Part shown: positions 7,286 through 16,325 of the stretch, piece after piece
How the letters are laid out: each line of letters opens with the position of its first letter
Position numbering within the stretch: position 1 is the stretch's first letter
Origin: an uncultured Kangiella sp.
GTDB lineage: Bacteria; Pseudomonadota; Gammaproteobacteria; Enterobacterales; Kangiellaceae
Assembly (NCBI GenBank): GCA_950096615.1
Contig: CATNCP010000009.1
Span: forward strand, 1-64,000
Length of the DNA: 64,000 bases
Reading direction: 5' to 3'
The notes under the pieces: generated by a model
The model's input: only the letters and a program-made list of their open reading frames with translations
Told to the model about the DNA's origin: nothing
The model's database searches: none
Made by a program: the position numbers and the translations under genes

Positions 7286-8593
7286 CTAAGTCAAACCTTC
7301 CAATCGCTCCGAGATTTCATGCAGCATCAAGTTTCCACAAGCCCCAGGCGACACTCTATCTTTAATTGACTCAATTGCTTGACGATTTTCCAGCTCTTGA
7401 TAATTGTTTTTGATATGACGATAAGCATCTCTGAATGGCATACCCTCTTCAATCACCAACTCAACAGCTTTATCCGTAGCAAACATGCTTGGATCAATCG
7501 CTTGCTCACATTTCTCGATATTAATGGTCAAAGACTTGAGCAAGTCTGGCACTAAATCCAAACATTGAAGCGACGCAGACACTCCTTTTAATAAAGCCCC
7601 TTTTGTATTCTGTAAATCACGTTGATAACCGCTGGGTAAGGATAGTAATGACTCCAGTTCATTGTAAGCGCCCACCAATGTCGAGTAAGACGCCCGCATG
7701 AGTTCCACAGCATCAGGGTTATGTTTATTTGGCATGATAGAAGAGCCGGTACTAAAATCATCACCAACTTCAACGAAGCCATACTCAGCTGTCGAAAAAA
7801 GACTCAAATCCCAAGCCATACGACGAATATCTAGCAGTGCATTTTTGAAACTACCCAGTACCTGAAGCTCTATTTTTCCTCGACTGTTTTGCGCGTACAT
7901 CGGATTGATCTGCTTTCGATTAAAGCCTAGGGCTTGAGTAGTGTAATCTCTATCAAGCTCAAGGTTTACGCCATAACCAGCCGCTGTTCCTAAAGGGTTA
8001 CTATTCACTAAGTGATAAGTATTATTAGCATCCGAAGCATTATCACAAAACGATTCTGCGAATGAGGCAAACCACATTCCCCAGCTCGAGACAACGGCTC
8101 TTTGTAAATGCGTATACCCAGGAAGCACATCATACTCATGCTGCTTAGCTAGGGTTAAACAGGTGTCAGCAACAGCCAGACATTGCCTCTTTAATTGATT
8201 TAGTGCATCACGACAGTAGAGCCTTGTTGCTACCGAAACTTGATCATTTCGACTTCTTCCGGTATGAATTTTCTTGCCCGTTTCACCGAGTTTTTCTGTT
8301 AAATACCACTCTATTGCCGAGTGTCCATCCTCAAAACGCTGATCTAGCTCAAACTCACCCTTAACAAAAAGCTCAGATAGCTCTAGTAATGCTTCAGTGA
8401 TTTGCTGAAGCTCAACTGACCGAATAACTTTTATCCTTTCTAAGCCCTCAGCATGAGCTTGACTGGCCTTGATATCATAAATAAACAATTGACGGTCCAG
8501 AAGAACATCTCCTCCCGACATAAAGCTACTAATTTTGTCCTGTAACTCTGATTGTTTAGCGTTATTTTTTTTACTCCAAAGGGGCTGTGCCAT
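7286..8593 (-). CDS. argH: Argininosuccinate lyase
   Basis: ArgH splits argininosuccinate to arginine and fumarate, the last step of the pathway. It has 435 residues. The fumarase/aspartase superfamily signature GSSIMPNKHNPD is present, as are THLQRA and the HTGRSRNDQV substrate loop. It is the last gene of the arginine operon, four bases after argC. The family is usually about 430-460 residues, so it is complete. Confidence 0.96.
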   Translation of the reverse strand: MAQPLWSKKNNAKQSELQDKISSFMSGGDVLLDRQLFIYDIKASQAHAEGLERIKVIRSVELQQITEALLELSELFVKGEFELDQRFEDGHSAIEWYLTEKLGETGKKIHTGRSRNDQVSVATRLYCRDALNQLKRQCLAVADTCLTLAKQHEYDVLPGYTHLQRAVVSSWGMWFASFAESFCDNASDANNTYHLVNSNPLGTAAGYGVNLELDRDYTTQALGFNRKQINPMYAQNSRGKIELQVLGSFKNALLDIRRMAWDLSLFSTAEYGFVEVGDDFSTGSSIMPNKHNPDAVELMRASYSTLVGAYNELESLLSLPSGYQRDLQNTKGALLKGVSASLQCLDLVPDLLKSLTINIEKCEQAIDPSMFATDKAVELVIEEGMPFRDAYRHIKNNYQELENRQAIESIKDRVSPGACGNLMLHEISERLEGLT

Positions 8594-8597
8594 AAGG

Positions 8598-9533
8598 TTA
8601 CCTGCCTTGCTTTAAACCCTCAAGCTGAGGCAGCTCGAAGGCAATGTTAATATTCTGAACAGCTTGTGACGCTGCTCCTTTCAATAAATTATCGAGTGCA
8701 CAACTAACTGCTAGATGCTGACCATCGGGAGATAGCTCAAAGCCGCCAATTATCACGTCAAAAGTATTTGAAACTTGTCTGATTTGAGGCGGCGGTTCCT
8801 GTACTTTAATCAGGGTGCTTTTCTGATAAAAATCTTCATAGCATGATTTAATGTCAGTCAGGGACAAGGGCCGCTTCAACGGTATATGCGAGGTTAAAGT
8901 TATGCCTCTAAAATACTCAGCCACGTGCGGCGAAAACTTTATGTCCATCGACAAATGATGCGACACTTCTTTTTCATGCAAGTGATTAGCCAAGCTATAT
9001 GGCATCACGTTATTGTTAAGTAACTCGGTATTATTTTTGTCTGAAGGTGTAGTTCCAGCACCGCTATAGCCCGAAATACCAAAGCAACTTACTCGCCCCT
9101 GCACTAAATGTTTTACTGGTGCAATACTCAGTTGCATCGCTGTAGCATAACAACCAGGATTACTGATTCGAGTCATAGTTTGCGGTTGGTAAACCTCCGG
9201 CAAGCTATAAGACCATCCTTCCTTAAAACGATAATCAGCACTTAAATCGATAATGGTGGTATCGCCTCGTTTTTGTTCTAGGGATTCAACAAATTGAGAA
9301 GCCAAGCCATTAGGCAGCGAAAGAATAACGAGATCTGCCGAAAGCTCTGCCACATCTTCTGGTGTTAAGTTACCGTACGTCAGTTTACTCTTGGTGTACT
9401 GTTGTACAGTTTTTCCCTCAAGCTCCCTTGAGCTAGCGGCAATAAGTTCTATCGAGGCATGCTGAGACAAGATACTTATTAACTCAGAGCCAACATACCC
9501 TCTAGCACCAACCAGCACCGTTTTAATAGTCAT
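8598..9533 (-). CDS. argC: N-acetyl-gamma-glutamyl-phosphate reductase
   Basis: ArgC reduces N-acetylglutamyl phosphate with NADPH to the semialdehyde. It has 311 residues, a little shorter than E. coli ArgC. The Rossmann motif VGARGYVGSEL lies at 8-18 and the active-site cysteine at 128 in ISNPGCYATAMQ. The start ATG overlaps the stop of the upstream argBA gene in ATGA, so the two are translationally coupled. Confidence 0.95.
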   Translation of the reverse strand: MTIKTVLVGARGYVGSELISILSQHASIELIAASSRELEGKTVQQYTKSKLTYGNLTPEDVAELSADLVILSLPNGLASQFVESLEQKRGDTTIIDLSADYRFKEGWSYSLPEVYQPQTMTRISNPGCYATAMQLSIAPVKHLVQGRVSCFGISGYSGAGTTPSDKNNTELLNNNVMPYSLANHLHEKEVSHHLSMDIKFSPHVAEYFRGITLTSHIPLKRPLSLTDIKSCYEDFYQKSTLIKVQEPPPQIRQVSNTFDVIIGGFELSPDGQHLAVSCALDNLLKGAASQAVQNINIAFELPQLEGLKQGR

Positions 9534-10855
9534 GATGTTGGCTCCTTCTGCTCAACGGTTTTTACTTTTGACGTTGCGAAATCAATACATTGCTGTATTT
9601 CACCAAAGTCCGTCATGCCAACCCAATAAACATTCCAATCGTCACATCTCATAAAACCGTCGGAAACACTGGCATAGAATTTATTCACAGGGTTATTGAG
9701 ACTCGCCCTCCAAAATATCTTTTTATGCTTCCAAGTTACTTTCTCCCACAGTGCACGTCCTATTCCCTCACCTTTAGCGTCATCACTCACCACAAACTTA
9801 TCCAAGTACGGAATGCTTTTCGTTTCTAACAGAATAATTGCAGCTCGATAACATTCCGTGACATAAACGTTGTATAAATTCGTACTGGTAAAGTAATTAG
9901 CATCAAGACTCTTGTTGAAAGAAGATTCAATTAATTTTTTAAGACGGATTTGATCAATCTCGTTCCATGAATCAAATACTAGAGCTCTCTCTCCCATATT
10001 GACTAAGGTGCCCGATCCTTTATCGGTAAACAGCTCCTTGGCTAGTAATTCTGGCTTTGTTATCGACACTGACGTTGCCGATGGCATGGCCTCAAGAATA
10101 TCTTTCACTTTTTCGAGCTTAAGCTTCATTCCAGAGTGAACCCAAGGTTGTTCTATTAAGTATTTATAGTTGTTCACAATGCTGATATTCGAAATGATCT
10201 TCCCATCTTGATCTAATACCCCACCCGTTTCGGTTAAGAAAATAATTTTATAAGGCTGCACCGCCTTCGCCAGACTAAAGGTGGCAGAGTCCGCATTCAC
10301 ATTAACAATCTGGCCTTCCTGAGTTTCACCCAGCGGACTGACTACTGGTACGCGACCTTTCTTGACCGTTTTTAATAACTGCTCTATTTCTACAGACGAA
10401 ATGGTTCCTACTAACCCCAGAGTATCTTGATGTTGAAGCTCACACTCAAATACACCTGAGTAAAAAGACGTCGCGTCCACGCCGACTTCTTTTAATTGAG
10501 ACGTTAAATTATGATTTTCATCAATAAATACTTCACGCGCCGCTTTAAGTACTTCGGGACTGGTGACTCTTTGTCCATCGACAAATTCTGCTTTGATATT
10601 TTTATCATCCAAGTGCGCAGTTAGTTGAGGGCCTGCACCATGAACAATTATAGGCGTCAGCCCCACCTGTTTTAGGAAAGATAGCGATGCTATAAGATTC
10701 TCCATTTCCTCTTTCAGAATTTTTCCACCGACTTTGATCACGGCAAACTTCAAACCTTCATCCGAAGAGAAACGTTTAAGGTATTTCCGAATCTGGGTTT
10801 CACTATCCATAACGGTGAGTAGTTTATAAACAGTATCTTTCACTGAGTTAGTCAT
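9530..10855 (-). CDS. argB: Bifunctional N-acetylglutamate kinase / N-acetylglutamate synthase
   Basis: One 441-residue protein combines the first two steps of arginine synthesis. Residues about 35-290 form an amino acid kinase domain (KVGGKIL, IVHGAGPQLT, VNVNADSATFSLA). The C-terminal 150 residues form a GNAT acetyltransferase with the acetyl-CoA loop SDDAKGEGIGRALWEK and NPVNKFYAS. This arrangement is the NAGS-K type known from Xanthomonas and resembles the vertebrate synthase. It explains why no separate argA is present in the operon. The start overlaps the end of argE by eight bases, with a GGAGG upstream. Arginine feedback on such enzymes is known for the family; no regulatory residues were assigned here. 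Confidence 0.94.
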   Translation of the reverse strand: MTNSVKDTVYKLLTVMDSETQIRKYLKRFSSDEGLKFAVIKVGGKILKEEMENLIASLSFLKQVGLTPIIVHGAGPQLTAHLDDKNIKAEFVDGQRVTSPEVLKAAREVFIDENHNLTSQLKEVGVDATSFYSGVFECELQHQDTLGLVGTISSVEIEQLLKTVKKGRVPVVSPLGETQEGQIVNVNADSATFSLAKAVQPYKIIFLTETGGVLDQDGKIISNISIVNNYKYLIEQPWVHSGMKLKLEKVKDILEAMPSATSVSITKPELLAKELFTDKGSGTLVNMGERALVFDSWNEIDQIRLKKLIESSFNKSLDANYFTSTNLYNVYVTECYRAAIILLETKSIPYLDKFVVSDDAKGEGIGRALWEKVTWKHKKIFWRASLNNPVNKFYASVSDGFMRCDDWNVYWVGMTDFGEIQQCIDFATSKVKTVEQKEPTS

Positions 10856-11957
10856 GGCTTAGAATCCTCCAGTACTCTGCTAAGACGCTTTCTAAGTCCT
10901 TAACATCAACCCACTCATTTGCCGTATGCGCTTGCTCGATTGATCCGGGACCATAGACAATGGACGGATAATCAGCCTCAGAAAATAATGCGGCTTCCGT
11001 CCAGAAGTTTACAGGGGGCGCAACGGTTAGCCCCAAATCCTGCGCTAAGACTCGGTTCTGCTGGTAGTTGTTATCCGCAGGAAGTGATGGCGCTTTAAAG
11101 CCGATGGATAATTGCTCACTGTTTAACCCTGTGGCGCGGACTAATTCATCGAATGTCGCAGTTACTGAATGTCCCGGTAAAGGTCTGAGTCCAAACTTGA
11201 TGTTAGTCAAAGGAGCAATAATATTCGGCTTAATCCCTCCCTCAACCTTACCGACGTTAAAACAGGTCCCTTTTAATGACTCAAAGTTGTCTTCAAGTTT
11301 TTTATCAGCCCAACCAATAGCCTTAGTGATCCACTTTGCAGCTTGATGATTGCTGTTATCGGCCAAAGCTCTAGGTTCTGAGCTGTGACCACTTTCGGCC
11401 TCAAATTGCACGCTTGCGGTAATAATACCTCGATGAGCTAACACCGCTTTTGCTTGAGTCGGTTCTGCGACGATGACACCTTTATAAGAGTGCTTATCTT
11501 TTAGAAAAGATCTGACACACAAGCTACTACCGTGTTCTTCGTCTGATGAAAAAAGTACCGCATAATCATCAACTCCAACTTCGATGCAGGCCAACATACA
11601 AGCTGCGGCACCTTTAATATCACAAGCCCCCAACCCAATAAACTTGTTATCCTTTTCAACTAAATCAAACGGATCAGTAACCCACCCGTCGGTTACAGGA
11701 ACCGTATCAATGTGATAGTTAAATAAGTATTCTGGGTTACCCTTGGTCGCTAAAACATTAACTGAGCCGTTACCATAATCGACAATATCAATATTGGCTC
11801 CTAGCAAGTTAGCTTCCAAATATTGGATAATCCCTGACTCTATAATCTTTCTAGGCGGGTTTGTGGTATCAAAACTAATTAAAGCTTTTAAATGTTTCTT
11901 AACCTGCCCAATACAGGGAGACTTCTTTGAGATTTGTGGTGTGTTTGTTAGAACCAT
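10848..11957 (-). CDS. argE: Acetylornithine deacetylase-type peptidase, probable N-acetylcitrulline deacetylase
   Basis: This is an M20 metallopeptidase of 369 residues. Metal and catalytic motifs are visible: NYHIDTVPVTDGW, GLGACDIKGA and SSDEEHGS. The dimerisation domain region contains SGHSSEPRALADNSNH. Because the operon encodes acetylornithine carbamoyltransferase, the expected substrate is N-acetylcitrulline, giving citrulline for ArgG; this is inferred from context and the Xanthomonas pathway. I chose the ATG at 11957, six bases after a GGAGG and overlapping the argG stop (TGATG), over TTG 11963. Confidence 0.92.
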   Translation of the reverse strand: MVLTNTPQISKKSPCIGQVKKHLKALISFDTTNPPRKIIESGIIQYLEANLLGANIDIVDYGNGSVNVLATKGNPEYLFNYHIDTVPVTDGWVTDPFDLVEKDNKFIGLGACDIKGAAACMLACIEVGVDDYAVLFSSDEEHGSSLCVRSFLKDKHSYKGVIVAEPTQAKAVLAHRGIITASVQFEAESGHSSEPRALADNSNHQAAKWITKAIGWADKKLEDNFESLKGTCFNVGKVEGGIKPNIIAPLTNIKFGLRPLPGHSVTATFDELVRATGLNSEQLSIGFKAPSLPADNNYQQNRVLAQDLGLTVAPPVNFWTEAALFSEADYPSIVYGPGSIEQAHTANEWVDVKDLESVLAEYWRILSHD

Positions 11958-13165
11958 CACCAACCTCCATTACCTTGCTGAACACTAGACCAAGTAGCTG
12001 TACTTTGACCAAAGAGCTTGATAAACCCAGTCGCTTCTTCAATACCCCAATTAGCTTTCTGAGCATACTCAACATCTTGATCAACAATCATATTTGGACT
12101 ATCAACAGCCACCGCCTCAATATGTCCTGCTGATACTTTTAACGTCACTTTACCCGTAACGTTTTGCTGCGATGATTTTAGAAACTGCTGAACATTGGTG
12201 GTTAATGGGTCGAAGTAAAATCCTTGATAGACTAAATCAATCCACTTCCTAGCAAGACTTGGTTTAAAGTGGTTTTGTTGCTGAGTCATCACCACCTCCT
12301 CTAGAGCTTTATGTGCTGTGAGTAAGCCCAACAACGCGGGAGCTTCAAATACTATTCTCCCTTTTAGTCCAATAATCGTATCCCCTGTATAGATCCCACG
12401 ACCGATCCCCTGACCTCCCAGTGTTTGATTTAACTGTTGCATTGCCTCTACGCCATTGACGTTTTCTCCACTCAGTGTCTTCAATTCACCAGCGACAAAC
12501 TCAAAAGTTATATGACTCGTTTCTTGTTGAACCTCTTCCGGATTCTTGGTCAGAATATAGGTATTACTCTCAGGTTCTTGCCACTTATCGATTGCCCCAC
12601 CGGATATGGTGACCCCCAATAAATTTTCGTTCACACTGTAACTCTTGTGCACAGCTGACACCTGATGCCCTTTTTGACTCAAGTAATCAATTTCATATTG
12701 CCTAACATCACTGACACTTTTTTGAATATCACGAATCGGTGACAAAATCGTTAGATTGCTTAAAGCCTTAATCGACAAGTCGAAACGAACCTGGTCATTA
12801 CCCATACCAGTACAACCATGTGCTACCAATGTTGTATTTAATTGTTTACACAGCTGTACCGCTTCTTTAGCAATGAGATAACGATCTGCACACAACACTG
12901 GATATTGGTCTTGATACAAAGCACCACCCCATACGAGCGGCTTTACAATGGTATCCCACAGCTCTTGCTGCCCATCCACCGTCCAGTGCTTTGCTGCACC
13001 CAGCTTCATAGCCGTGCCTTCAATCTCATCAATGGTCTTTGTGCTCACTCCGCCCGTGTTAACGAATAAGGTATGCACTTCAAACCCTTGGTCAATTAAA
13101 TATGGCACACAAAAGCTTGTATCCAAGCCGCCTGAAAATGCTAACACTACTTTTTCTTTGCTCAC
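11957..13165 (-). CDS. argG: Argininosuccinate synthase
   Basis: ArgG condenses citrulline and aspartate with ATP. It has 402 residues. The PP-loop AFSGGLDTSF lies close to the N-terminus, and AHGCTGMGNDQVRFD and EPESNTYILTKNPEE follow. I chose GTG at 13165, which has an AGGTG six bases upstream; an in-frame GTG at 13174 almost touches the argF' stop and lacks a ribosome site. It overlaps argE by one base. Confidence 0.95.
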   Translation of the reverse strand: MSKEKVVLAFSGGLDTSFCVPYLIDQGFEVHTLFVNTGGVSTKTIDEIEGTAMKLGAAKHWTVDGQQELWDTIVKPLVWGGALYQDQYPVLCADRYLIAKEAVQLCKQLNTTLVAHGCTGMGNDQVRFDLSIKALSNLTILSPIRDIQKSVSDVRQYEIDYLSQKGHQVSAVHKSYSVNENLLGVTISGGAIDKWQEPESNTYILTKNPEEVQQETSHITFEFVAGELKTLSGENVNGVEAMQQLNQTLGGQGIGRGIYTGDTIIGLKGRIVFEAPALLGLLTAHKALEEVVMTQQQNHFKPSLARKWIDLVYQGFYFDPLTTNVQQFLKSSQQNVTGKVTLKVSAGHIEAVAVDSPNMIVDQDVEYAQKANWGIEEATGFIKLFGQSTATWSSVQQGNGGW

Positions 13166-13175
13166 TGTATTCACC

Positions 13176-14177
13176 TTAAGAATGATTAATTAATGTATTC
13201 ATGATCGATTTCTGTACATGTAGGCGATTTTCCGCTTCTTGAATCGCAATACAGTTTTCTGAATCGACAACACCGTCCGTCGCTTTAACATTCCTTCTCA
13301 TTGGTAAGCAGTGACTAAACAAGGCGTTGTTAGTTTTCGCCATCTTTGCTTCATCAACCATGAAGTGCTTGTACTGATCGCGGATAGGCTTTTCACTTTC
13401 CCACTGACCAAAATATGTCAACGCACCCCAGCTTTTGGCATACACCACATCTGCGCCTTCATAAGCGCTATCAATATCATGCGATACCGTCAGTTGATTG
13501 CCATGTTGTGCGCTGTAAGTTTGACCAAGATCCATGTAATGCTGGTCTAGCAAATAATCCTCATTAGGACATAACAAAGTGACGTCCATACCAAACTTTG
13601 TGGCGATCATGAGGGAAGAGTTAGCCACTGCTGTATTGAGTGGCTTGGGGTGATAAGTCCAAGTCAGCACATATTTCTTACCGTTTAAATCGCCAAGATT
13701 TTCTTGCAGAGCCATGATGTGGGCTAACTCTTGGCACGGGTGGGTAATGGTTTCCATATTAATAACAGGAACTGTCGAAAACTGCGCAAGACTTTTAATT
13801 AGCTTGTCCTGACGCTCCTCATGCCAGTTCTGGAACTTTGGAAATGCTCTAACAGCGATAATGTCACAGTAAGCTGATAACACCTGCGCTACTTCCTGTA
13901 TATGTTCTTCCGCCTCACCATCCATAATGGAGCCAAGCTCAAACTCAATCGGCCAGGCATCTTTCCCAGGCTGCAGAACGACGGCCTGACCGCCCAGTTG
14001 ATGAACGCCCAACTCGAAGCTAGTACGAGTCCGAAGCGACGGATTGAAAAAGAGTAGTGCTACGGACTTATTTTTTAGCAAAGGCTGAAACTTCTCTTTC
14101 TTCAGATCTTTGGCAAAGTCGATCATCTGCTGCAAATCATTTTGCGGCCAATGCTCAGTGGTCAAAAAATGTTTCAT
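13176..14177 (-). CDS. argF': N-acetylornithine carbamoyltransferase
   Basis: This enzyme carbamoylates N-acetylornithine to N-acetylcitrulline, replacing ornithine carbamoyltransferase. It has 333 residues. Carbamoyl-phosphate motifs are SLRTRTSF (47-54), HPCQE (146-150) and HCLP (289-292). The stretch LTWTYHPKPLNTAVANS is diagnostic of the Xanthomonas-type enzyme. Glu90 and Lys298 align, from memory and by hand, with Glu92 (acetyl versus succinyl selectivity) and the carboxylated Lys302 of the X. campestris enzyme. I chose ATG 14177 with AGGA upstream, giving MKHFL as in the family; an in-frame ATG at 14201 has no ribosome site. It is the first gene of the operon, directly behind the attenuator. 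Confidence 0.95.
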   Translation of the reverse strand: MKHFLTTEHWPQNDLQQMIDFAKDLKKEKFQPLLKNKSVALLFFNPSLRTRTSFELGVHQLGGQAVVLQPGKDAWPIEFELGSIMDGEAEEHIQEVAQVLSAYCDIIAVRAFPKFQNWHEERQDKLIKSLAQFSTVPVINMETITHPCQELAHIMALQENLGDLNGKKYVLTWTYHPKPLNTAVANSSLMIATKFGMDVTLLCPNEDYLLDQHYMDLGQTYSAQHGNQLTVSHDIDSAYEGADVVYAKSWGALTYFGQWESEKPIRDQYKHFMVDEAKMAKTNNALFSHCLPMRRNVKATDGVVDSENCIAIQEAENRLHVQKSIMNTLINHS

Positions 14178-14226
14178 GGCAATTCCTGCTCGTCTTGCCA
14201 TCGGGAGGGAGTTTTTAGAGGTGCAT

Positions 14227-14254
14227 AAAAAAACCCAGCCGATGGCTGGGTTTT
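14227..14254 (-). terminator. Attenuator terminator of the arginine operon (segments 3:4)
   Basis: On the minus strand AAAACCCAGCC, an ATC loop and GGCTGGG are followed by seven T. This is a strong intrinsic terminator 50 bases upstream of argF' and downstream of the leader peptide stop. Segment 3 (CCCAGCC) can alternatively pair with an identical copy of the 3' arm, GGCTGGG, inside the leader peptide gene (14300-14306), which makes it a conditional terminator. Confidence 0.9.
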
Positions 14255-14275
14255 AAATTCTGTTGTTTTAAACGA

Positions 14276-14380
14276 TTATTTAGACAACAAGGTGCTACTC
14301 CCAGCCGGATTAATACGGCTGCGACGTCGCTGTTGTACTGTAGTAGCTTCTGCTACATTAAAACTGTTCACAGTTGTCAT
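14276..14380 (-). CDS. argL: Arginine-rich leader peptide of the arginine operon
   Basis: This short frame encodes 34 residues starting MTTVNSFNVAEA and containing QQRRRSR, with arginine codons CGA CGT CGC at 18-20 and CGT at 22. A GC-rich hairpin (CAGCCG at 14321-14316 with CGGCTG at 14307-14302) overlaps the last arginine codons. When a ribosome stalls there for lack of charged tRNA-Arg, this hairpin is blocked, GGCTGGG is free to pair with CCCAGCC, and the terminator at 14227-14254 cannot form. The logic is that of the trp and his attenuators. The gene symbol is descriptive. The frame, hairpins and terminator are seen directly; regulation by arginine is inferred. Confidence 0.85.
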   Translation of the reverse strand: MTTVNSFNVAEATTVQQRRRSRINPAGSSTLLSK

Positions 14381-14419
14381 CGTGTATAAAAACCTAATCG
14401 TTTTAAAAATTGGCACTGA

Positions 14420-14448
14420 CTCTAAGCTGTAGAATCAATTAAGTGCAA
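14420..14448 (-). promoter_or_regulatory. Candidate promoter of the arginine operon
   Basis: On the minus strand TTGCAC and TTAGAG are separated by 17 bases, about 40 bases upstream of the leader peptide start. The -10 element is poor. I see no clear ArgR operator pair here, which fits control by attenuation. This is a guess from spacing and position. Confidence 0.4.
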
Positions 14449-14510
14449 AGCGAATTTACCGCTAAAAATACTAGGTGTAAACCCTTTATTTCAAAAAATT
14501 ATATCAGCCG

Positions 14511-14544
14511 CTGTCATGACAGTGTCATATTGCCACTTGATAAT
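14511..14544 (+). promoter_or_regulatory. Pho-box-like promoter of the gene at 14577
   Basis: CTGTCAT and GTGTCAT are directly repeated with a four-base spacer (14511-14528), which matches the PhoB box pattern of two 7-base repeats at 11-base period with one mismatch. Ten bases later a -10-like GATAAT occurs at 14539-14544, the spacing known for PhoB-activated promoters. The start codon of the lipoprotein gene follows about 30 bases downstream. Confidence 0.6.
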
Positions 14545-14576
14545 TGGCCTAATTTACTGATAAATAACATACTATT

Positions 14577-16325
14577 ATGAACTATTTGCGCACTTTTTTT
14601 ACACTCTTACTGTTAGCCTTAGTGCTCGCTGTCAGCTCTTGTAAGACCACAACAGCGCCGCAGAGTCAATTGAACAGCCAAGGGCTTCAATTAGACTTAA
14701 TCGCTCGTCACGTCAGTAATCAATATGGTGAAGGCGCTGCTGAAATCGTTGCTCACGATCATCAACATCAAAAGCTTTACGTCGTTAACGGCGCGAATAA
14801 AGCCATTGATATTATCAGTATTGCACAGCTTCCTACGCAACCTCTTAAGCTTCCCTACAGTGGTAGCAACCTTCAAAGCCGTCAGCTAATCCTGCCTAAA
14901 ACAATCTCACTAGAGCAGTCTCAATCGATCGAAATTGGCGGACCAAATTCCTTAGCAATATACGATGATATGCTTGCAGTGGCCGTTGCAGCGAAGAACA
15001 AACAAGCCAATGGCGTGATTCTATTTTATTCGATAGGAGAAGAGAAACCTTCATTAATCAAAGGCGTATCAGTCGGCGCTTTGCCTGATATGGTGACCTT
15101 TAGCAAAGACGGTTCGAAAGTTATTGTCGCGAACGAAGGAGAGCCTAGCAAAGATTATCGCGTCGATCCTGAAGGCAGTATCAGTATTATTACTACCCGC
15201 CCTAATATTTCCAGCCAAGCAAAGCACTTGAGGTTCACTGACTTCAACAATCAACGTTCAGAACTTGAAAAATCTGGCGTTAAGTTCGCCAGCCCAGAAG
15301 GAACATCAGTCTCTCAAGATTTAGAACCAGAATACATCACAGTTAGCGATGATGGTTCCAAAGCCTACGTTAGCTTACAAGAGAATAATGCGATTGCTAT
15401 TATCGATCTGCACCAGGAGTCTCTATTGGAGGTTCAAGGCTTAGGCTTTAAAGACTGGGGGCAGTACAAAATCGATGTCAGCAACAAAGATGGTGTTAAT
15501 GCCGCTAATTACGAAAACGTTTATGGCATGTACCAGCCTGATGCAATCGCTTCTTATGACGTAAACGGTAAGACCTATATTTTAAGCGCCAACGAAGGTG
15601 ATGCTCGCGAATACATTTATCAAGCGACTGAAGCAGACTGCAAAGCAGCTAGTCATACATTCGATAAAGAAGATGGCTGCATCAGTTACACCGAAGAATA
15701 CCGTGCAAAAAAACTATCATTAAAGTCACCCTCTGTCATTGATTCCTACTACCATAAAAATGGTATTGGCCGCTTAAAAGTCACTAATGTGCTGGGTGAT
15801 GAAGATGGCGATGGCATGTATGACAAGCTCTACAGCTATGGCGCTCGCTCTTTCAGTATCTGGAATCAAGATGCTGAACTTGTGTTTGATAGTGGCGACG
15901 ATTTCGAGCAGCTACTTATCCAACGCTACGGCGAAAACTTCAACAGTAATGAAAACGAAAACAAAGGTGATGCCCGCTCTGACGATAAAGGTGCAGAACC
16001 TGAAGCCATCACTGTAGGTATGGTCTACGGCAAAACCTATGCTTTTATCGGTCTAGAACGTCATGGCGGCATTATGATTTATGATATCAGCAATCCTCAC
16101 CAGCCATCGTTTGAGAGCTATATTAACAACCGTGACTTCGATAAATCCTTCGAGATTGACGACGATGCGGATCCTGTATCTTTAAAAGGGGCTTACGACC
16201 AAGTTGGTGACCTAGCCCCAGAAGGGTTAGCCTTTATTGATGCAAAAAACAGCCCTACAGGAAAGCCCTTGTTGGCCGTAGCCAATGAAGTAAGTGGAAG
16301 CATTTCTATCTACCAAATACGATAA
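14577..16325 (+). CDS. Choice-of-anchor I family beta-propeller lipoprotein
   Basis: This is a 582-residue exported protein. The N-terminus is a lipoprotein signal ending VSSC (Cys22). The rest contains repeated blade-like segments (HQKLYVVNGANKAIDII, DGSKVIVANEGEPS, DGSKAYVSLQENNAIAIIDL, YILSANEGDAREY) of the choice-of-anchor I family, related to atypical secreted phosphatases and phytase-like esterases. An Asp-rich loop (DEDGDGMYDKLYSYGARSFS) may bind calcium. The Pho-box-like promoter upstream suggests a role in phosphate acquisition; the catalytic activity itself is not demonstrable here. A strong terminator follows. Confidence 0.85.
   Translation: MNYLRTFFTLLLLALVLAVSSCKTTTAPQSQLNSQGLQLDLIARHVSNQYGEGAAEIVAHDHQHQKLYVVNGANKAIDIISIAQLPTQPLKLPYSGSNLQSRQLILPKTISLEQSQSIEIGGPNSLAIYDDMLAVAVAAKNKQANGVILFYSIGEEKPSLIKGVSVGALPDMVTFSKDGSKVIVANEGEPSKDYRVDPEGSISIITTRPNISSQAKHLRFTDFNNQRSELEKSGVKFASPEGTSVSQDLEPEYITVSDDGSKAYVSLQENNAIAIIDLHQESLLEVQGLGFKDWGQYKIDVSNKDGVNAANYENVYGMYQPDAIASYDVNGKTYILSANEGDAREYIYQATEADCKAASHTFDKEDGCISYTEEYRAKKLSLKSPSVIDSYYHKNGIGRLKVTNVLGDEDGDGMYDKLYSYGARSFSIWNQDAELVFDSGDDFEQLLIQRYGENFNSNENENKGDARSDDKGAEPEAITVGMVYGKTYAFIGLERHGGIMIYDISNPHQPSFESYINNRDFDKSFEIDDDADPVSLKGAYDQVGDLAPEGLAFIDAKNSPTGKPLLAVANEVSGSISIYQIR

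Follow-up and report, generated by a model that had tools for sequence, protein, structure and literature searches.

The 64,000-nt stretch of DNA analysed here (the window), from an uncultured Kangiella sp., carries on its minus strand an arginine-biosynthesis operon with the order argF'-argG-argE-argB(A)-argC-argH, in which argH is assigned by translation alone. Its first gene, argF' (13176–14177, ATG at 14177), encodes N-acetylornithine carbamoyltransferase (NF003384, 575.8 bits against a cut-off of 288; PDB 3kzc, 1.9e-158) and would be the first gene under the control described below. It is followed by argG (11957–13174; NF003385, 614.1 bits, cut-off 603); argE, for acetylornithine deacetylase (10848–11963; NF006439, above cut-off); argB(A), for a 441-residue form of an argB-type acetylglutamate kinase (9530–10855; NF003387, above cut-off); argC (8598–9533; TIGR01850, above cut-off); and a putative argH (7286–8593), which we take to be this gene from the family features of its translation. 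Successive reading frames overlap by 4–8 bases at argG/argE (11957–11963), argE/argB (10848–10855), and argB/argC (9530–9533), which fits one transcript. On the other side of the leader region, the neighboring gene (14577–16325) lies on the plus strand and is divergent, so that a terminator upstream of argF' serves no upstream gene on the minus strand.

Between these two genes, a 34-codon minus-strand ORF (14276–14380; ATG at 14380, stop at 14276) would encode the leader peptide MTTVNSFNVAEATTVQQRRRSRINPAGSSTLLSK, which contains the stretch QQRRRSRINPAG. Codons 18–20, CGA CGT CGC (14321–14329, with CGA at 14329–14327), form a run of putative regulatory arginine codons that is conserved in relatives, and codon 22, CGT (14317–14315), specifies a further arginine; the run reads CGACGTCGC in 11 of 12 Kangiella rows and CGACGCCGC in the remaining one. 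The same strand can form alternative helices, namely (i) segment 1, CAGCCG (14316–14321), with 14307–14302, as seen in folding; (ii) segment 2, GGCTGGG (14300–14306), with segment 3, CCCAGCC (14244–14250), a pairing conserved in the alignment; and (iii) segment 3 with segment 4, GGCTGGG (14234–14240), the covarying 3′ arm of a terminator that ends in a run of seven T (14227–14233). Folding adds an inner antiterminator helix, formed by the arm TTGTTGTC (14283–14290) and the arm ACAACAG (14260–14266). What the initial annotation had stated of the leader, the arginine codons, the segments, and the seven T is exact to the base, and alignment and covariation place the intrinsic terminator between the leader ORF and the first gene.

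A predicted promoter, TTTACA-17 nt-TAAATT (14453–14481, minus strand), lies outside the region that the initial annotation had delimited. The motif was spotted by eye first and counted afterwards, and its consensus, TTTAC(A/T)-17-TA(A/C/G)A(T/C)T, recurs in 12 of 12 Kangiella loci tested, a 13th locus being incomplete. By eye, no strong Shine-Dalgarno sequence was seen ahead of the leader start in the Kangiellaceae leaders. The stretch 14222–14381 folds at −50.1 kcal/mol, compared with −33.9 (sd 3.4) for 200 dinucleotide shuffles (z −4.8), none of which was equally low; conservation is nevertheless stronger evidence for a leader element than any single-sequence statistic. When scanned with a generic terminator finder, the hairpin was reported for the plus strand alone. 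Its minus-strand form can pair four of the seven U with four A in a stem of 11 bp, and the three U that remain fall short of the rule applied by the scan. Rfam returned no match at threshold for the window; the best subthreshold hit, Phe_leader (25.1 bits against a gathering threshold of 55), was set aside, its alignment resting on the terminator hairpin, and RF02242 (Xoo5, threshold 50 bits) was absent among matches up to E 10 in 14150–14550.

Occurrence of the leader upstream of argF'

Among 40 Kangiellaceae genomes, argF' was called at E<1e-100 in 25, and the close relatives named among the matches listed were Kangiella and Aliikangiella. In 23 of the 25 argF'-bearing genomes, both an arginine run and a T run are found no more than 400 nt from argF'; in the 24th (G012), the leader, RHDRRRREVACWVE, is found ~430 nt upstream of the gene; and the 25th (G026) shows two RNA-model matches, a full one and a partial one, each at a different contig end. 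A leader is hence present upstream of argF' in all 25 argF'-bearing Kangiellaceae genomes (24 read in sequence, one by model match alone). Every one of the 24 leaders read contains a short ORF with clustered arginine codons, ~22 to 56 codons long depending on the start chosen. Its N-terminal part is unrecognizable from genus to genus, and the peptides have little in common except the arginine run and an AG over segment 2.

Attenuators before other genes were sought with two RNA models, R1 and R2, both built on argF' leaders, which other designs would escape; the searches scored the top candidates, 96 per genome in the family and 9–10 per genome in the class. R1 found no arginine leader in the 15 family genomes without argF', some of which are incomplete (G015, 73%; G028, 86%): its matches at E≤1e-6 in three of them are his leaders, and the other 12 stayed below that level. 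Second R1 matches in Kangiella were first taken as further arginine leaders; of 15 such stretches, nine are his leaders upstream of hisG, one is the arginine leader of G012, and five are, by eye, terminators without an arginine leader. In a sample of 369 genomes spread over the class, argF' occurs in five, and leader-model matches at E≤1e-19 fall in those same five (R1 in the window's own genome, G000; R2 in G071, G224, G333, and G426), about 50–130 nt upstream of argF'. Three weak class matches (G347, G170, and G349; E 2.8e-6 to 9.9e-6) were rejected by eye as apparent plain terminators. That of G349 lies between a membrane-protein gene and an argD-looking gene, and the out-of-frame ORF MLKLLTKQRQRRR, ~80 nt before it and inside the upstream gene, was taken as chance. 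The other class-wide match below 1e-5 is the his leader of the window's genome.

This genome also has a his attenuator of similar build. At all nine Kangiella loci inspected by eye (L120–L128, of which L120 lies on contig C4 of G000, about 84.6–84.9 kb), two his leaders stand in tandem ahead of hisG, exemplified by MKTLLNTSHHHHHHTNVLAVSCCL with its terminator for the first and by MRVISQLHHHHHTLRERRWDEWYVIK with its own terminator-like hairpin for the second. The linker between segments 2 and 3 of the arginine leader (14290–14240) resembles that of L120 (GTTGTCT..AATAATC).

Beyond the family sample, we collected 74 further argF' loci (L042–L115) from the best 80 of 554 confirmed relatives, a set that leans to close relatives and from which six Kangiella loci (L036–L041) were kept out. 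A second leader form, …GMTSRARRP…AG, precedes argF' in 65 of these 74 loci, most of them from the Xanthomonas order; 64 were recognized by pattern within 350 nt of argF', and L103, lying further up, was added by eye. Their record titles are mostly Xanthomonas, Stenotrophomonas, Luteimonas, Lysobacter, Pseudoxanthomonas, Rhodanobacter, and relatives. The rest of the 74 comprise three Kangiellaceae loci (L056, L062, and L089), one locus in a metagenome-assembled genome (MAG) labelled Aeromonadales with an RRR leader (L057, 52.3 bits with R1), and five loci in which the leader is absent (L042, L048, L064, L067, and L079), from MAGs labelled Myxococcales, Alphaproteobacteria, and Phycisphaerales. 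The T run is interrupted in three of the 64 pattern-recognized loci (L049, L086, and L113). One locus with a Stenotrophomonas-like leader and argF' (L069) sits on a contig titled Bacillus subtilis SK7B5, probably a contamination or a mislabelled record. In the Dokdonella MAG of L103 and in G012 (L129), several hundred bases, partly repeat-like, separate the arginine terminator from argF'. In a midpoint-rooted tree of 46 chosen argF' rows and four ornithine carbamoyltransferase rows, leader presence maps as one change among the argF' rows with moderate support (79/87; 95% of 200 bootstrap trees), and the leader may therefore have had a single origin, with which the tree is compatible.

Part of this second form is already catalogued. 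Rfam RF02242 (Xoo5) matches three of the 11 loci given to it, two from Xanthomonas and one from Stenotrophomonas, at 103.6–148.2 bits against its threshold of 50; these are three of the seven second-group loci given, and four of the eight unmatched loci belong to the same group. The matches lie within the argF' leaders (1234–1357 in L087, 1229–1352 in L112, and 1225–1348 in L111), with model position 1 falling, at 1234–1236, 1229–1231, and 1225–1227, respectively, 2 nt before the leader ATG. By eye, many Lysobacteraceae loci have a −10-like box some 10 nt upstream of the ATG. If model position 1 corresponds to the mapped 5′ end, the leader message at these three loci would probably be leaderless. 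In Xanthomonas oryzae, sRNA-Xoo5 is described as a 124-nt RNA, its 5′ end mapped by RACE and its 3′ end taken from clones, lying between PXO_00354 and PXO_00353, the latter encoding N-acetylornithine carbamoyltransferase; Northern blots gave bands of ~130 and ~100 nt, both in early growth and the short one alone later (PMC3039613). No attenuation role is given for it in the part of that paper available to us. The 124-nt model ends ~28–30 nt short of the T run, and the terminated RNA is expected at ~157 nt, so that the shorter bands are not simply the terminated leader. Xoo5 has also been predicted in Herbaspirillum, outside the argF' contexts known to us. The prediction is listed in a table, in the row for H. 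hiltneri (PMC6337395).

Alternative pairings and the position of the ribosome

In the Kangiellaceae alignment (A1; 23 rows, with L012 and L025 left out), segments 3 and 4 are paired in 98.8% of cells, with three pairs and 11 cells changed on both sides, and none of 500 shuffles equalled either the pairing or the covariation score. Segments 2 and 3 are paired in 96.3% of cells, compared with 17–57% at slid registers. Double-sided changes of the 2:3 helix, as read from the alignment, affect three pairs in one row each (two in L017 and one in L022), and segment 4 of L017 changes along with its 2:3 pairs. The 2:3 covariation score was reached by 65 of 500 shuffles, a weakness explained by segment 2 hardly varying in this family; the sequence linking segments 2 and 3 is freely variable. 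The second-group alignment (A3) comprises 43 leaders, taken from 57 distinct ones that satisfied filters on length and terminator (the 57 being from the 64 loci drawn from the best 80 of 554 relatives), the 14 left out being ten near-copies and the divergent L059, L072, L075, and L080. Here, one position changes jointly in segments 2, 3, and 4, and reads U-A in 25 rows, C-G in 12, U-G in two, and unpaired in four for 2:3, with A-U in 25 and G-C in 18 rows for 3:4. The 2:3 pairing is hence kept in both groups, with weak covariation in Kangiellaceae and clear covariation in the second group. Hairpin 1:2 forms in single-sequence folds of the Kangiellaceae leaders, and A3 lends no covariation support to a 1:2 helix in the second group; a 5′ hairpin located within the ORF of the second group reached 83.3% pairing, but 111 of 500 shuffles were as high, and it was rejected. 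Relatives thus keep the arginine codons, the terminator, and the complementarity of segments 2, 3, and 4, with co-ordinated changes, as the initial annotation had anticipated for a working attenuator. The converse, arginine codons replaced beside a retained terminator, is not what the leaders show, the arginine run being conserved and most of the peptide not.

We modelled the folding of the nascent RNA as far as segment 3 while moving a ribosome footprint codon by codon; counted from the first base of the A-site codon, the footprint extended 15 nt upstream and 12 nt downstream. When 40 nt of upstream RNA was included for the 23 Kangiellaceae leaders, the mean probability of the 2:3 helix, P(2:3), was 0.91, 0.94, and 0.95 with the ribosome on the first three arginine codons, and it exceeded 0.5 in 22, 23, and 23 leaders, respectively; without upstream RNA, the mean was 0.96 on each. 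It fell to ≤0.03 six to thirteen codons past the arginine codons (≤0.01 with the 40 nt included), and at the stop codon it was 0.10 with or without upstream RNA (>0.5 in two of 23 with 40 nt). In the absence of a ribosome, the mean was 0.32 with 40 nt of upstream RNA (>0.5 in seven of 23) and 0.47 without it. The window's own sequence gave 0.64 when free, 1.00 at each arginine codon, and 0.04 at the stop; at the free value of 0.64, the untranslated state would not be clearly terminating. Moreover, the first arginine codon lies 20–26 nt from segment 2 in all 23 leaders. By this model, the Kangiellaceae leaders closely fit a scheme in which a stalled ribosome masks segment 1 and frees segment 2, and a ribosome at the stop codon blocks the 2:3 helix.

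Most second-group rows have a stop codon that overlaps segment 2, and in the stop state the mean P(2:3) was 0.00, with none of 43 leaders above 0.5. In the stalled state, 39, 40, and 40 of the 43 exceeded 0.5 without upstream RNA (29 when free), and 20, 22, and 25 did so with 30 nt of it (17 when free). The modelled half in which a finishing ribosome blocks segment 2 is accordingly the better supported in this group, and the stalling half depends on the RNA context.

The third arginine codon of the second group is CGA in 48 of 53 distinct leaders (64 loci, from the best 80 of 554 relatives), whereas CGA makes up 0.8% of the 1135 arginine codons in argF' of the 65 loci; in Kangiella, all 12 rows have CGA as the first arginine codon, as against 11% of 100 arginine codons in their argF'. 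The alanine between the arginines is present in all 53 distinct second-group leaders through four codons, that is, with synonymous third-position changes. The arginine codons in question would be read by one tRNA. In theoretical work, how sensitive an attenuator is depends on which of the synonymous codons it uses, with arginine not treated in the part of that work available to us (PMC1183508).

ArgR and the control of the arginine operon

Repressor control is commonly illustrated by arginine biosynthesis and its repressor ArgR. The family PF01316 had no match in the window's genome or in the 25 Kangiellaceae genomes that encode argF', and the absence of a clear ArgR operator remarked on in the initial annotation is accounted for by ArgR itself not being found in this genome. 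Matches occur in six of the 40 family genomes, none with argF' (Fisher p 0.0013, the six coming from two genera and so not being independent events). There were likewise none in 20 genomes behind second-group loci and L057 (loci from the best 80 of 554; completeness unstated). In the class sample, 35 of 369 genomes matched, 33 of them over the cut-off, and none of the five argF' genomes (four besides G000) did so; since most class genomes lack ArgR, its absence from argF' genomes is consistent and at most suggestive.

Amino-acid leader-peptide attenuators include those of trp, his, leu, ilv, thr, and phe. The element upstream of argF' resembles them in (i) regulatory codons that follow one another in a leader ORF, (ii) a 2:3 antiterminator opposed to a 3:4 intrinsic terminator, and (iii) a stop codon near segment 2, and it differs from all six in its amino acid and operon, which are those of arginine. 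The fungal arg-2 arginine attenuator peptide shares with it the name and the amino acid, but is a eukaryotic arrest peptide that controls translation. The ArgR regulon likewise provides arginine feedback on arginine genes, but through a repressor protein, which was not found in the argF' genomes tested. In the Salmonella speF leader orf34, consecutive arginine codons sense arginine through ribosome pausing; this leader acts, however, on a putrescine-making gene through Rho, opening of the ribosome-binding site, and RNase G, with no intrinsic terminator before arginine biosynthesis (PMC6386406). Pseudomonas carA similarly has a leader peptide and possible attenuation before a gene feeding arginine synthesis, but there the gene is carA, not argF', attenuation is ascribed to pyrimidines, and arginine control to transcription (PMC4997734). 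T-boxes are the only RNA control named for arginine genes in the part of PMC1262725 available to us, and argF, argG, and argC are unnamed in the main text of PMC2965389. The initial annotation knew of no description of such a leader. This holds insofar as we found no leader-peptide attenuator of arginine biosynthesis in the open-access literature, with subscription papers as a place that could hold one, but part of the element already stands in Rfam, where the argF' leader of Xanthomonas and Stenotrophomonas is described as the sRNA Xoo5 (RF02242).

We consider it highly probable that the element is a ribosome-mediated transcription attenuator specific for arginine. The trp-type logic first proposed for the locus draws support from the conserved arginine codons, terminator, and 2:3 pairing, and from the modelled footprint. 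We infer that transcription would start downstream of 14481–14453, with a ribosome translating the leader ORF behind the polymerase. A shortage of charged arginyl-tRNA would stall this ribosome at codons 18–20, where it would cover segment 1 and leave segment 2 free; segment 2, together with the inner helix, would then capture segment 3, no terminator would form, and argF'GEB(A)CH would be transcribed. When arginine is ample, the ribosome would reach the stop codon and cover segment 2 or the inner arm, so that the 3:4 terminator would form and transcription would end at the T run.

An ordinary intergenic terminator accompanied by a chance ORF has almost no chance of being the right reading: such hairpins are common, and our models weakly match other terminators too, but a leader is present in 25 of 25 Kangiellaceae genomes and 65 of the 74 further loci (best 80 of 554), the upstream gene is divergent, and the arginine run, its spacing, and the 2:3 complementarity are conserved, so that sequence comparison already contradicts it. 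It is also highly improbable that a protein or a metabolite, by way of an antiterminator protein or a riboswitch, decides between 2:3 and 3:4 with no ribosome. The alternative helices would exist regardless of translation; however, no conserved unpaired core is seen besides the arginine codons, the sequence between segments 2 and 3 is free to vary, and the switch point of the folding model coincides with the arginine codons.

Two further readings draw their support from the second group. Arrest by a nascent peptide in the exit tunnel, with arginine, ornithine, or N-acetylornithine as ligand and not through a shortage of charged tRNA, could explain why this group keeps A-x-M-A-x-G-M-T-S-R-A-R-R-P beyond the arginine codons with synonymous third-position changes. 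We regard it as unlikely, given that the Kangiellaceae peptides share little beyond the arginine run and the AG over segment 2, that starvation at an arginine run with the rare CGA is simpler, and that arrest by excess arginine has the wrong sign for feedback. That the upstream RNA is instead a trans-acting small RNA ending at the terminator, as Rfam treats Xoo5, with unregulated read-through, appears very unlikely. An RNA of ~130/~100 nt does arise from the site on Northern blots of X. oryzae (PMC3039613) and the Rfam model matches three loci, but this RNA covers a conserved arginine-rich ORF with synonymous changes, starting 2 nt before its ATG, and strong R2 matches in the class sample lie exclusively before argF'. 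An attenuator would release such an RNA anyway, and both may hold.

In summary, a conserved arginine attenuator working as first proposed, mechanistically of a known kind and new in its amino acid, is very likely. A wider reading is offered tentatively, as less likely than not: an arginine attenuator of one origin might travel with the argF' operon and replace ArgR in two distant gammaproteobacterial groups, with the Xanthomonas leader being leaderless, its core GMTSRARRP adding nascent-peptide stalling, and the catalogued sRNA being an arginine sensor. Nearly the whole pathway, argF'GEB(A)CH, seems to be under ribosome stalling where ArgR was not found, the Xanthomonas group included. If true, an orphan Rfam sRNA family would acquire a function, arginine would join the amino acids served by leader-peptide attenuators, and the rare CGA, nearly fixed at one control position, would provide a natural test of attenuator codon choice.
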